Below are positions 15,596 through 19,316 of a stretch of 64,000 nucleotides of DNA, piece after piece. Location of the stretch: the NCBI RefSeq assembly GCF_004320535.1, contig NZ_SIHY01000003.1, forward strand, positions 124,001 to 188,000. Direction: 5' to 3'. The stretch comes from Arthrobacter sp. S41 (GTDB lineage: Bacteria; Actinomycetota; Actinomycetes; Actinomycetales; Micrococcaceae). The position numbers and the translations under genes were made by a program. A model generated the notes under the pieces. The model was not told the DNA's origin, searched no databases, and saw nothing but the letters and a program-made list of their open reading frames with translations. Numbering within the stretch: the stretch's first letter is position 1; each line of letters begins with the position of its first letter.

Positions 15596-16801
15596 ATGGC
15601 CTCACGAAAACCAGCCAAGAAGAAAACCGCACAGGGTCATCCGGCTCGTCAGTCCGGGGCGAGCTCCGTACCTTTTGAAACTGAAGTGCGCCAAGCTTTA
15701 CAGCCTTTTAAGTCCCAGCTGTTCCGCCACTTCCAAGAAGACGGACACCCCGCCAGCGAAACACGCGCTGCGCTCGAAGGACTCACGACGCTACTGACCG
15801 TGCATGCGCAGTTGCGCAAGAGTGTTGACGTCCAGTCGCTGGATCCAACTGTTCTTGGCGAGCAGCTCGGCCACCTGTCCTCGCTGGGCAAGCAAGTTTC
15901 AGAAGCCAGCGCTGCGATCCTCAAGCACTACCTAACCTTCTTGGGCACCACTGCAAACTTTGGTGGCAGCGTAGAAGACTTCAAGCAGACCTTCGAGTTC
16001 CTCTCCCGTATGGCTGGTGATTCACCAATCGTCGCCCCTTACCTTGAAGACGACGAGGCCAACGGAGCCTTCGAATCAATGCCATTTGTCTTTGCTGCCC
16101 GCGAACTTATCGGCTGGGTCGGTGAAGGTAAGCCAACTACACCAGCTGGCGTTCTCACCGGAGAAACCTTGCAAGATGCAGCCCAGGCACTGGGAATGTT
16201 CATCAAGGTCGACGAAAGCGCCGAGGCTATTGAGCACCCTGAGTGGGAACCAGAAGACGGAACCAGCGTTCCATCGCTGGCTGACATCCCTCGCCTTTCG
16301 GCCTATTGGGATGCACTAATCGGAACCGCATTGTTGCGCTATCAGGCACCTAATGCGACACCTACCGAATCACTGAGTGAAGCATTGCTCGCCACCAGCG
16401 GTGCAGGGTCACGCTTGATCAAGGAACTGATCGCTGAGGTGCTCTACTCGCACATTCTGATCAATACTCTTGAAAAGCCGGGCCAGGCACAGATCGCCGA
16501 GATGGTTGCTGGGGTGCTGAGTAATGCTGCCTCGACAAACACCGTCCGTACTGAATTTGCGCTGCAGATTCCTACCAAAGAGGATCTGCCCGAAGAGCAG
16601 CACCACTTGATTCCTAGCCTCGAAGAAGTTGTTCCTCAGGTGGAATCGCTACTTCGTGTCTTTGAGCGCGAGGGTCTGGTTCAGATCACTGAGGAAATCA
16701 CCGTTCCGATTGTGCTGCGCTCCTCGTTGGAACGCGCACTGGGCAAGGTCTCCGAGCATGTCCTGAAAACCGACTCCGACTCTAACGATTCAGAGGCATA
16801 G
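15596..16801 (+). CDS. Conserved hypothetical protein, 401 residues
   Basis: I do not recognise a domain. The protein starts with a Lys-rich, probably disordered stretch (about 20 residues) and continues as a mostly helical, acidic, soluble protein with no signal peptide or membrane segment. No Cys-rich or nucleotide-binding motif is seen. The central part has several GET/PTTPAG and LRYQAPN turns. The C-terminus ends in Asp/Ser-rich residues. Codon use matches the neighbours, the ATG is clear and a perfect terminator follows, so it is a real single-gene unit. AAGGA lies 15 bases before the ATG, longer than usual. A role in nucleoid or protein interaction is possible from the basic tail but is speculation. 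Confidence 0.7.
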   Translation: MASRKPAKKKTAQGHPARQSGASSVPFETEVRQALQPFKSQLFRHFQEDGHPASETRAALEGLTTLLTVHAQLRKSVDVQSLDPTVLGEQLGHLSSLGKQVSEASAAILKHYLTFLGTTANFGGSVEDFKQTFEFLSRMAGDSPIVAPYLEDDEANGAFESMPFVFAARELIGWVGEGKPTTPAGVLTGETLQDAAQALGMFIKVDESAEAIEHPEWEPEDGTSVPSLADIPRLSAYWDALIGTALLRYQAPNATPTESLSEALLATSGAGSRLIKELIAEVLYSHILINTLEKPGQAQIAEMVAGVLSNAASTNTVRTEFALQIPTKEDLPEEQHHLIPSLEEVVPQVESLLRVFEREGLVQITEEITVPIVLRSSLERALGKVSEHVLKTDSDSNDSEA

Positions 16802-16814
16802 TCGGCGCAGAACA

Positions 16815-16855
16815 AAAGCGACGGATCCGGGAGAAAATCCCGGATCCGTCGCTTT
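16815..16855. terminator. Intrinsic terminator after the 401-residue hypothetical gene
   Basis: An 18-bp perfect inverted repeat (16815-16832 with 16838-16855) has a 5-nt GAAAA loop and ends in a short T-run. Confidence 0.9.
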
Positions 16856-17150
16856 CTACTTAAGCTCGCATGTATCGGCGTCCTACTGTCTCCGTAAGAA
16901 CGGAAACCTGAAGTTATAAAAGGTACGTCGCATTGCCGACAGACAACGGCACGCGATGGGGGCGCAATGCCGATGAAAGATCAGTCTGTTCACACAATGC
17001 AACGTACCTTTTAATCACCCTCTGGTCCTTGATGATGCCACTCGCAAAACACCACCAAGTACCTTCTCGGTGATCGGTCTTCACCGATACATATCTAACC
17101 TATCGTGTTCAGCGAAAAATCGAAATCATACTTTAGTAGGAGGGTAAGGC
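16856..17150. other. 295-bp gap holding the inverted-repeat element
   Basis: Besides the 97-bp element, the gap contains a small hairpin (TCGGTGA/TCACCGA at 17067-17073 and 17081-17087) downstream of the minus-strand kinase gene. It lacks a T-run and is not a convincing terminator. No gene is visible. Confidence 0.5.
16917..17013. repeat. Short inverted-repeat element flanked by TA, MITE-like
   Basis: Arms 16919-16935 and 16995-17011 are inverted copies with one mismatch over 17 bp (beginning AAAGGTACGT). The element is about 93 bp, has no coding potential and is bordered on both sides by the dinucleotide TA, as produced by IS630/Tc1-type transposition. Inside, the near-repeats GCATTGCCGA and GCAATGCCGA may form further structure. 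It lies between a terminator and the 3' end of a histidine kinase gene. A structured RNA or regulatory hairpin is the alternative. Confidence 0.5.
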
Positions 17151-18335
17151 CTAGAACGGAATGCTGGCGCGAAGGGTCCAAACACCTTGCTCTTGGCTGG
17201 TTGAGAACTTTCCACCAAAGGCACGCATCCTGTCGGCCATACCAATGAGGCCACTTCCGCCCGCTGGTAGCCCCTTCACTTTCCTACCGGAAACACCCAC
17301 CTGATTAGTGATTTCTAGTGAGGCTTCGGTGCCGTTTGAAAGCAATTCTAATGAACAGTGACCACCCGGGACACCGTGCTTTATGACATTCGTTGTACCT
17401 TCTTGCATCACACGATAGATCGCAGTTTGCGCAGAACGAGGCAGTTCGGAGATTTTTTCATCCGTGGTCGAGGTCACTCTAAAGTTGGCATCTTTGAGCC
17501 GTTGAGCAAAAAGTTCTGCTCCCTGAAGCGCATTGACAGTAGTTGCAGCCGGCTTATCAAAGTTGGCACTGCCTTCTGTGGACATGGTGCCATCGGCCCG
17601 TAGGACGTTGAGCATCAGTCGCAAGTCATGCAAGGTTTCGGTACTGAGCTTAGCGATGATATCGAGTGCCTCTAGCGCGGCCTGCCCGTCGTTGGCGAAC
17701 TTGGCCGCCTTTGACTGCATCGCGACGATAGTGATGTCATGAGCAACGATGTCATGCAGATCGCGGGCGATGTTTTTACGTTCTCTGTCTATGGCTATAC
17801 GCGTCTGTTCCCGAGCCTTTTGCATCTGATCAACAGCGTGATCATTCTTCTCTCGCAATGAATAGATACTGCGCGTTACAAAGTAGGACAGGGCAGTCAA
17901 CGGCACCAGCGCGACGAGCAATATGGCGTCCTGATGGGCTTGGATAGCAAACAGAACCATCCAGGCCGCCGATAGCGTGAGGAACAATCCTCGAACACTT
18001 CGTGCATCAACAGTTGCTGCCAGCGCCGCAAAAATCATAAACGCAGTGAAGGTGAAGAAGAATAGGAAGCTCTCGTTGAGGAAGAAGAAGGCAACGGCAA
18101 TAAACAGTCCGAGGGACGCTGCGACCCATCGAAGACCGATAGCCAGCACCACGCAAAGCACGAGCCCTACGAGGGCTCCCAAGATGGTTGTTTGTGACGC
18201 TCGACTAAAACCGTCCCTAAAGAGGGTGACGGACTCACTGCCCGACAGGAGAACAAGGACAGCGATCCCCACCCAAATAATGACACCCCGGCCAGCGAGG
18301 TGCTTGGTCAGGGTGCCTTTTAGTCGTTCACTCAT
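17151..18335 (-). CDS. Two-component sensor histidine kinase, NarL/DesK type
   Basis: A 394-residue membrane kinase. Six hydrophobic segments lie roughly at 17-31, 50-67, 71-88, 90-108, 115-132 and 137-153, with very short loops, so there is little extracellular domain and the signal is probably sensed in or at the membrane. A short coiled coil leads to the HisKA_3 domain with ARDLHDIVAHD and phospho-acceptor His194. The ATPase domain ends with the G-box GGSGLIGMADRM. It lies 41 bp downstream of a small secreted-peptide gene on the same strand, and the likely cognate regulator is divergent just beyond that. This arrangement resembles peptide-sensing two-component systems; the signal is unknown. 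Confidence 0.88.
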   Translation of the reverse strand: MSERLKGTLTKHLAGRGVIIWVGIAVLVLLSGSESVTLFRDGFSRASQTTILGALVGLVLCVVLAIGLRWVAASLGLFIAVAFFFLNESFLFFFTFTAFMIFAALAATVDARSVRGLFLTLSAAWMVLFAIQAHQDAILLVALVPLTALSYFVTRSIYSLREKNDHAVDQMQKAREQTRIAIDRERKNIARDLHDIVAHDITIVAMQSKAAKFANDGQAALEALDIIAKLSTETLHDLRLMLNVLRADGTMSTEGSANFDKPAATTVNALQGAELFAQRLKDANFRVTSTTDEKISELPRSAQTAIYRVMQEGTTNVIKHGVPGGHCSLELLSNGTEASLEITNQVGVSGRKVKGLPAGGSGLIGMADRMRAFGGKFSTSQEQGVWTLRASIPF

Positions 18336-18376
18336 ATGCCGAATAATTCACGGCGACAGCGTTCAAGTCAAATAGC

Positions 18377-18559
18377 TTATTCGCAACCTACGCCGTAGTG
18401 AATGCATATCCACTTCGAAAAGTCTGCACCCCATCCGGCTGGGGTTGCAACTGATCCGGAGCCGATTGACTGACTCTGCGCCGCTGATGCGGGAGCAGCC
18501 ACTGCGGTTAACGGTGCCAATGCCAATGCGGCAACGGCCATCATCTTCAAAGCCTTCAT
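18377..18559 (-). CDS. Small secreted peptide (60-residue precursor) between kinase and regulator
   Basis: I do not recognise a family. The ATG at 18559 lies six bases after GGAG; a GTG at 18571 would add four residues. A textbook Sec signal peptide (basic MKALK, Ala/Leu-rich core, cleavage after APASA) leaves a mature peptide of about 34 residues. It is Ser/Gly-rich at first and ends with WICIHYGVGCE, whose two Cys, six residues apart, could form a disulphide ring. The gene lies 41 bp upstream of the histidine kinase on the same strand and next to the divergent response regulator. The likeliest roles are extracellular signal for that kinase or a small bacteriocin. Real expression is inferred from start, signal and context. 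Confidence 0.65.
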   Translation of the reverse strand: MKALKMMAVAALALAPLTAVAAPASAAQSQSIGSGSVATPAGWGADFSKWICIHYGVGCE

Positions 18560-18641
18560 AACAAACTCCACATCTCGACAACTTATATACTTTCAAGTGA
18601 GCACCCGTTTGGAGCTTGCAGCATCGACGCTAAGGAAACAG

Positions 18642-19316
18642 ATGGAACAAATAAAGGTCCTAATCGCTGATGATGAGCCACTAATTCGGCATGCGTTGGG
18701 GACAATCCTATCAACGGATTCTGGGCTTGTAACCGTATTTTTTGCAGAAAATGGACAGCAGGCAGCCGACTATTGCGTGGCAAACGAAGTTGACGTTGTT
18801 TTGATGGACTTACAGATGCCAATCATGGACGGGGTTAGCGCGACTCGCGCCATTAAATCTCGCATAGACAGCCCCGCAGTCCTTGCAATTACGGCATTTT
18901 CCTCGGATGAGTATTTAGTGCCTGTACTTACCGCAGGCGCCAGCGGCTATTTAGTTAAGGATTCAGAACCGGGAGAAATAATTAATGCCGTGCACGCAGT
19001 TCATCACGGCACTGCGGTCATTTCCCGCTCGGTTTCAGCCGACCTGATTTCCGCGGTGCGCAAAGCACATACGGATAATTCTCAACAGGTCGAAGATCTC
19101 ATTGATGATCTGGGCATAACCAGTAGAGAAATCCAGATTCTAAAACTCCTTGCTCAGGGATTTAATAATGTTGAAATCTCCAAAACCCTCGGCATCACCG
19201 AGACCACGGTCAAGACACACATGGCAAAAATCTTCGTCAAGCTCTCAGTCCGCGACCGCGTTCAGGCCCTGATAGCTGCTGCGCGACTGGGGATTGTTGA
19301 AATCCCGAAGGATTAA
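18642..19316 (+). CDS. Response regulator, NarL/LuxR family
   Basis: A 224-residue regulator starting at the ATG at 18642 behind AAGGA (spacing 7). The receiver domain carries the acidic pair DDE at residues 10-12, phospho-acceptor Asp56 in VVLMDLQMP, Thr in AITAF and Lys in YLVKD. The C-terminal LuxR helix-turn-helix includes TSREIQILKLLAQG and TETTVKTHMAKIF. It is divergent from the peptide and kinase genes, leaving only about 80 bp shared promoter space, so autoregulation of all three is likely. Codon use looks more AT-rich by eye than the ClpC gene that follows, suggesting different ancestry. Confidence 0.9.
   Translation: MEQIKVLIADDEPLIRHALGTILSTDSGLVTVFFAENGQQAADYCVANEVDVVLMDLQMPIMDGVSATRAIKSRIDSPAVLAITAFSSDEYLVPVLTAGASGYLVKDSEPGEIINAVHAVHHGTAVISRSVSADLISAVRKAHTDNSQQVEDLIDDLGITSREIQILKLLAQGFNNVEISKTLGITETTVKTHMAKIFVKLSVRDRVQALIAAARLGIVEIPKD

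Follow-up and report, generated by a model that had tools for sequence, protein, structure and literature searches.

A small gene lying between a sensor histidine kinase and a divergently transcribed response regulator in Arthrobacter sp. S41, a genome that belongs in Glutamicibacter, encodes a 60-residue peptide, and we consider it probable, if well short of certain, that peptide, kinase and regulator form one peptide-signalling circuit. The three genes are conserved as a unit, the C-terminal core of the peptide is under purifying selection, and the peptide gene is coupled to one subclade of HisKA_3 kinases. The circuit looks like a kind not yet described in the literature covered: no paper on such a peptide–kinase circuit was recognisable by title in full-text searches of an open-access library.

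The peptide gene and its two-component neighbours

The window, that is, the whole stretch of 64,000 nucleotides that was analysed, had previously been described from its letters alone. This sequence-only reading had noted a 60-codon gene with a ribosome-binding site, a signal peptide and a C-terminal Cys-x6-Cys motif, 41 bp ahead of the kinase and about 80 bp from the divergent regulator, and all these features are confirmed (Table 1), the distance between the two ATG codons being 82 bp. The peptide gene starts with ATG, and its translation reads MKALKMMAVAALALAPLTAVAAPASA followed by AQSQSIGSGSVATPAGWGADFSKWICIHYGVGCE. If the product is cleaved after residue 26, a site set by eye without a predictor, 34 residues would be left. 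In the conserved core, which ends in W-x-C-x6-C, Pro40, Ala41, Gly42, Trp50, Cys52, Tyr55 and Cys59 are invariant in all 18 rows of the genus. Neither Pfam nor NCBIfam holds a family that the peptide matches at its cut-off. Upstream, TATAAG within TATATAAG is conserved in 18/18 genus rows of the intergenic alignment; apart from this probable -10 region, no regulator binding site was found there, and neither the 82-bp region nor its alignment revealed a clear internal repeat.

The flanking genes pass as a HisKA_3/NarL two-component system on Pfam domains above cut-off, namely HisKA_3 in the kinase (E=3.6e-15) and Response_reg (E=2.9e-27) together with GerE (E=3.5e-17) in the regulator. The kinase likely has six membrane helices with short loops, a topology matched by the succession of helices in a fold model of poor quality (mean pLDDT 65, pTM 0.36). 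Six scanned neighbours of the unit are ordinary, including an epimerase-like protein, a FAD oxidase, a 401-aa protein and a ClpB-type chaperone; among these six there is no immunity, export or transport gene and, as had been remarked from the sequence, no AgrB-like or other processing gene.

Three features beyond the kinase deserve mention in their own right. The 401-aa gene adjoins the trio in 12/12 Glutamicibacter and 9/10 Paeniglutamicibacter-group loci, the contig of the tenth ending early. Directly past it lies an inverted repeat, and the 97 bp between it and the kinase resemble a small mobile element, with no other copy of their end motif in the window.

Table 1. Features at the peptide–kinase–regulator locus, in positions of the window
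Feature	Position	Strand	Basis
401-aa protein, without Pfam match	15596-16801		
Perfect 18-bp inverted repeat with 5-base loop, probably a terminator	16815-16855		
97-bp stretch with 19-bp inverted ends, 95% complementary	16917-17013		
HisKA_3-type sensor histidine kinase of 394 aa with H-box RDLHDIVAHDIT and probably six membrane helices	17151..18335	-	Pfam; sequence; fold model
Peptide gene (60 aa and stop codon), made up of signal peptide, variable linker and conserved C-terminal core	18377..18559	-	Sequence; 18/18 genus genomes; dN/dS
Conserved core VATPAGWGADFSKWICIHYGVGCE, codons 37-60 of the peptide	18380..18451	-	Alignment column counts
Signal peptide, Sec-type, codons 1-26, ends A-S-A	18482..18559	-	Sequence; conserved in 18 rows; cleavage site by eye
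Divergent intergenic region, 82 bp, peptide ATG to regulator ATG	18560..18641	.	Sequence
Ribosome-binding site GGAG of the peptide gene	18566..18569	-	Sequence; six bases ahead of ATG
TATATAAG, probable -10 region of the peptide–kinase transcript	18582..18589	-	Alignment; function inferred
Response regulator, 224 aa, receiver + LuxR-type HTH (NarL type)	18642..19316	+	Pfam

Conservation of the unit and its coupling to one kinase subclade

The peptide gene is vertically inherited and present in every Glutamicibacter genome, a search at E<=1e-6 having detected it in 18/18. With a single peptide as query against 395 family genomes, strong matches (E<=1e-10) were confined to the own genus, where 18 genomes gave one; weaker matches, at about 1e-3 to 4e-6, fell mostly in genera g23, g27 and g15, the chance-match background lying near E=0.1. 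Kinase and divergent regulator adjoin the peptide in all 30 loci read (the best 30 of the family matches), over which kinase identity ranges from 30 to 100% and regulator identity from 43 to 100%. A comparison of the trio across relatives, with the expectation of a conserved frame around a variable mature sequence, had been suggested by the sequence-only reading. Trio, signal, Cys pair and synteny are indeed conserved (30/30 loci, 18/18 genomes), but the mature part shows no hypervariability among members of the genus, in which the linker is variable and the last ~24 residues are under constraint. Pooled dN/dS within the genus amounts to 0.03-0.14 for the core (four identity bins), 0.34-0.66 for the linker (three bins) and 0-0.08 for the signal, values to be read as approximate, since synonymous sites approach saturation in the wider bins. 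A partial Mantel test of the peptide core against the sensor domain gave r=0.21 (p=0.037), and the signal peptide gave the same value, so that nothing specific to the core emerged. A peptide HMM that included the signal was discarded as a guide to distribution: it matched 81/396 order genomes at E<=0.01, yet beyond the two genus members the listed matches were weak, most of them covering the signal part and often lying within long frames.

Several lines of evidence, beginning with these 30 loci, show the peptide gene to be evolutionarily tied to its kinase. Among the nine HisKA_3 kinases of the own genome, only that of the unit has a divergent regulator and a peptide; seven of the other eight have a regulator directly downstream, and for one none was found. 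In a control set of 109 loci, picked by kinase similarity and with a few loci present twice, a peptide-like ORF lies upstream of the kinase in 36/55 loci of divergent layout (2.65 expected from shuffles), in 2/49 of the usual layout with the kinase before the regulator (1.50 expected), in 3/4 with the regulator before the kinase (0.15 expected) and in 0/1 without a regulator. In a tree of 122 kinases, from which near-copies had been left out (L114-L119 and L122, with L120, L121 and L123 kept; L132; L117), all 50 peptide-labelled rows fall in one 70-row side (support 100/99), and the label changes 6 times, against 38.8 in shuffles. A second tree, quickly built and wider in scope (112 kinases), splits off 39 rows without peptide (SH-aLRT 98) and places all 55 labelled rows among the other 73, inside which deep forks are unsupported; here, the label changes 10 times, against 37.7 in shuffles. 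One locus with a negative label in the latter tree, L253, was peptide-positive on later reading. For both trees, labels were set by a detector and by eye, matches at L095, L152, L241, L148, L266 and L267 being deemed spurious by eye. A uniform label-blind detector scores 45 of the 73 rows and 1 of the 39, with L148 (in the 45) and L152 (the single one) looking spurious, and it misses 12 labelled rows, eight of them with leaderless ORFs plus L076, L083, L128 and L137. Thus, the peptide labels rest partly on the eye, but the contrast between the 73 and the 39 rows does not.

Variants of the unit in other lineages

A kinase-alignment scan of named genomes retained the best 80 of 428 relatives (79 loci), among which a peptide lies between kinase and divergent regulator in 12/12 Glutamicibacter and 10/10 Paeniglutamicibacter-group loci. 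The 18 divergent Nesterenkonia loci encode a different peptide in six cases (hydrophobic start, ...FFCxAFPxxxxC) and none in 12; therefore, the kinase–regulator pair can persist without a peptide. Two Kocuria loci have peptides of the type ...DDFLCKL[LF]RSC. The surroundings differ while the unit stays intact, clpB and the 401-aa gene being found at 12/12 Glutamicibacter loci, and Nesterenkonia and one further genus having neighbours of gcvT type. In the Paeniglutamicibacter group (L026-L033), CTGTTGACTT is conserved about 30 bases ahead of the peptide start and a clear ribosome site is missing, the transcript perhaps being leaderless. In Nesterenkonia, the regulator–kinase block is flipped relative to gcvT and its neighbour gene between the peptide-bearing and the peptide-less group (L128 versus L132).

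Order-wide (396 genomes), a kinase search returned single loci of other families, whose dissimilar peptides keep the signal and the C-terminal Cys pair (for example, ...MALCDLIPELCPPHLR). Class-wide (394 genomes), it added 29 loci, five with a divergent regulator, 23 in kinase–regulator order and one without a regulator in reach. One of these five led to family f57 of another order, where the kinase has a match in 77/293 genomes, a peptide of such kind is present in 19 of 30 loci read (by our own count), and seven loci of genus g224 share the type ...GLCxxYPxWC. The same layout of a predicted export signal, a variable linker and a C-terminal Cys pair thus recurs in further families and in a second order. 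The variant peptides of five other lineages had no NCBIfam match at E<=0.1. Variants are under selection too, with a dN/dS of 0.30 in genus g224 (seven rows), 0.24 in Nesterenkonia (six) and 0.11 in Paeniglutamicibacter (six). A candidate peptide from Ornithinimicrobium (L155) is weak and does not stay in frame in the related L148. A plasmid search with the kinase returned 10 records that are about 30-32% identical to it across 54-61% of the query.

Ten loci of genus g59 have leaderless ORFs of 13-30 residues in place of the signal-bearing peptide. A related kinase (E<=1e-60) occurs in 7/59 genomes of this genus, and in 7/7 a short ORF, mostly preceded by a strong GGAGGTG site, lies between it and the divergent regulator: MGIFYVFGKMIGIFR, MSIFYVFGKMIGIFR, MWDWLGRWLGIWK (twice), MWDWLGRYLGIWK, MWYWLGQLIGIFK and MMTVWTWLCQQLGVCSN. 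Another g59 genome (L082) has MGIFYIFGKMIGIFR. At two further divergent loci, the ORFs are MFASSIWTALCKLLRACS, in which CKLLRAC resembles the CKLLRSC of a Kocuria peptide predicted to be exported, and ...DPTWLCEVFGICD. The likeness of the leaderless ORFs to the core was noticed ahead of its statistical test. With Cys columns excluded, p against the core profile is 0.0002-0.01 in four of six tested variants and about 0.1 in the two of GIFY/SIFY type; over all columns, it is 0.0015-0.048 and about 0.3, respectively. Of eight Cys-type variants from other families, scored over all columns, only those of f17 (p=0.008) and Kocuria (p=0.036) fall below 0.05. All-position scoring thus leaves 8/14 variants above 0.05, and peptides from different families fail to align as a single one. 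Several of the loci L207-L212 share GACGAAAGTCG and the palindrome GAATCGATTC ahead of the leaderless ORF, both of them candidate regulatory sites.

Peptide-less Nesterenkonia kinases (e.g. L126, from 4485 onwards) have an N-terminal extension containing F[ES][AS]GG[FY]W-x-[CSYA]-R ahead of the first membrane helix. The N-terminal FWSCRDLNKW of such peptide-less Nesterenkonia kinases resembles the core at a shuffle p=0.004 in two rows, and membrane helices of other kinases score equally; a fusion of the core to these kinases is at most weakly suggested. It would be rather unlikely, in our estimate, that a whole family of peptide circuits on one HisKA_3 subclade, spanning at least two orders, shares one core epitope, presented as a Sec-exported Cys loop, as leaderless peptides (e.g. 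MWDWLGRWLGIWK and MFASSIWTALCKLLRACS) and perhaps as the kinase-fused FWSCRDLNKW, with the receptor tracking the ligand first outside the cell, then inside it and lastly within the receptor chain itself.

Because they have no Sec signal, the leaderless variants are hard to square with plain export; if the signalling reading is right, they would make one ask by what route a kinase senses a peptide that is seemingly not exported. Together with the peptide-less Nesterenkonia loci and a core that is conserved rather than diversifying within the genus, they weaken the notion of plain cell-to-cell signalling, for which export is a prediction. The peptide may instead be a membrane-bound or periplasmic subunit that tunes the kinase of its own cell, as an accessory regulator in stress sensing, and we regard this as possible, though less probable than not by some distance. 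Such a role would fit the tight one-to-one coupling to the kinase (30-locus reading, layout control, 112-kinase tree), the hydrophobic leaderless versions of 13-18 residues and the Nesterenkonia variant, which has an N-terminal hydrophobic stretch and lacks an A-x-A site. It agrees less well with the A-x-A-bearing signal peptide of most variants and with the position of the unit in lanthipeptide clusters of two genera, since peptide signals are usual in such clusters.

These two genera are g88 and that of genome G1304. In g88, two genomes combined give the order regulator, peptide, kinase and a class II lanthipeptide operon with two LanM and a C39 exporter: L181 encodes two LanM proteins (TIGR03897, E=6e-128 and 3e-91), and L182 a precursor of the plantaricin C family (E=1e-10) and a C39-domain exporter. 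The peptide itself was found in 3/6 genomes of g88, one of them with a match no better than E=0.002. In G1304, which belongs to family f57, the peptide–kinase pair is flanked on one side by a LanM-type gene (DUF4135 E=1.5e-43, LANC_like E=6e-27) and an ABC exporter, and on the other by an ABC transporter pair, which is followed by the regulator. In a further genome, G1186, peptide and kinase come after ketosynthase, MFS and PALP genes.

The sequence-only reading had left the choice between a signalling circuit and a self-regulated bacteriocin. We favour signalling, because the gene occurs in every genome of the genus (18/18), is inherited vertically and has no immunity or transport gene among its six neighbours, and because a separate lanthipeptide adjoins the unit in two other genera, in g88 with its own lantibiotic precursor. 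A role as a small bacteriocin, made under the control of the two-component system, is distinctly unlikely on these grounds, even though the peptide is small, predicted to be exported and equipped with a Cys pair. The peptide also resembles lactococcin 972 in having a signal peptide and, weakly, over residues 1-46, but it falls short of the family model TIGR01653, scoring 15.6 bits (E=0.014) where the cut-off is 32.1: the score is half the curated one, the similarity lies in signal and linker, and the mature part is much shorter. Finally, an unrelated secreted protein that has only the promoter region in common with its neighbours, as the missing Pfam or NCBIfam family might hint, is highly improbable given an association that persists over many genera, in differing surroundings and on only one kinase subclade.

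Known peptide-sensing systems and the proposed circuit

Compared with known systems, the unit is reminiscent of ComX-ComP-ComA of Bacillus in that a peptide gene directly precedes a multi-helix kinase of the NarL-partner type, with a NarL-type regulator; ComP senses ComX, a modified 10-residue peptide (PMC8895600). Unlike that system, the Glutamicibacter peptide has a Sec-type signal instead of being a ComQ-modified propeptide, it has a Cys pair, and its regulator is divergent. The peptide had no ComX match in Pfam at E<=1, and no ComQ-type isoprenyl transferase occurs among the six scanned neighbours. AgrBDCA likewise combines a small peptide with a kinase, AgrC, that has six helices and no large outer domain. 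However, neither AgrB nor AgrD turned up in the Pfam scan of the peptide or among the six neighbours, and the HisKA_3 kinase and LuxR-type regulator seen with Pfam are not of the Agr types. With the two-component systems that serve lantibiotics and respond to peptide pheromones, the unit shares its place in a class II lanthipeptide cluster in g88 and G1304; in Glutamicibacter, by contrast, it stands alone, and a distinct peptide of Sec type, neither the lantibiotic nor a double-glycine peptide, is the candidate signal. Judged by family scans of the trio and of its six neighbours, the unit classes with the HisKA_3/NarL two-component systems rather than with ComQXPA, Agr or lactococcin 972.

In the signalling circuit that we favour, the peptide would be exported by Sec and cut past A-x-A, and its two cysteines may close the C-terminal segment into a loop. 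This loop or the surrounding core (W-x-C-x-x-[YLFW]-G-x-x-C in Micrococcaceae) would bind as ligand to the adjoining kinase, whose predicted six membrane helices leave almost no outside domain. The kinase would then pass phosphate to the divergent NarL-type regulator, which may act on the shared 82-bp promoter region, towards peptide and kinase in one direction and towards its own gene in the other, so that the circuit would regulate itself. We infer that the regulator also acts on distant targets, in the present genome as elsewhere, and that in some lineages the neighbouring lanthipeptide cluster would be such a target.

Peptide signals of actinobacteria are little known; in the part consulted of a review of two-component quorum sensing, a KEGG-based census assigns the full ComQXPA and Agr pathways to other phyla and lists neither as complete for actinobacteria (PMC8895600). 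If the proposed circuit is real, many soil, food and host-associated actinobacteria carry it, and the genome sequence itself reveals the natural ligand. The circuit would, in some lineages, turn on antimicrobial lanthipeptides, and silent clusters could then be tested with synthetic peptide.
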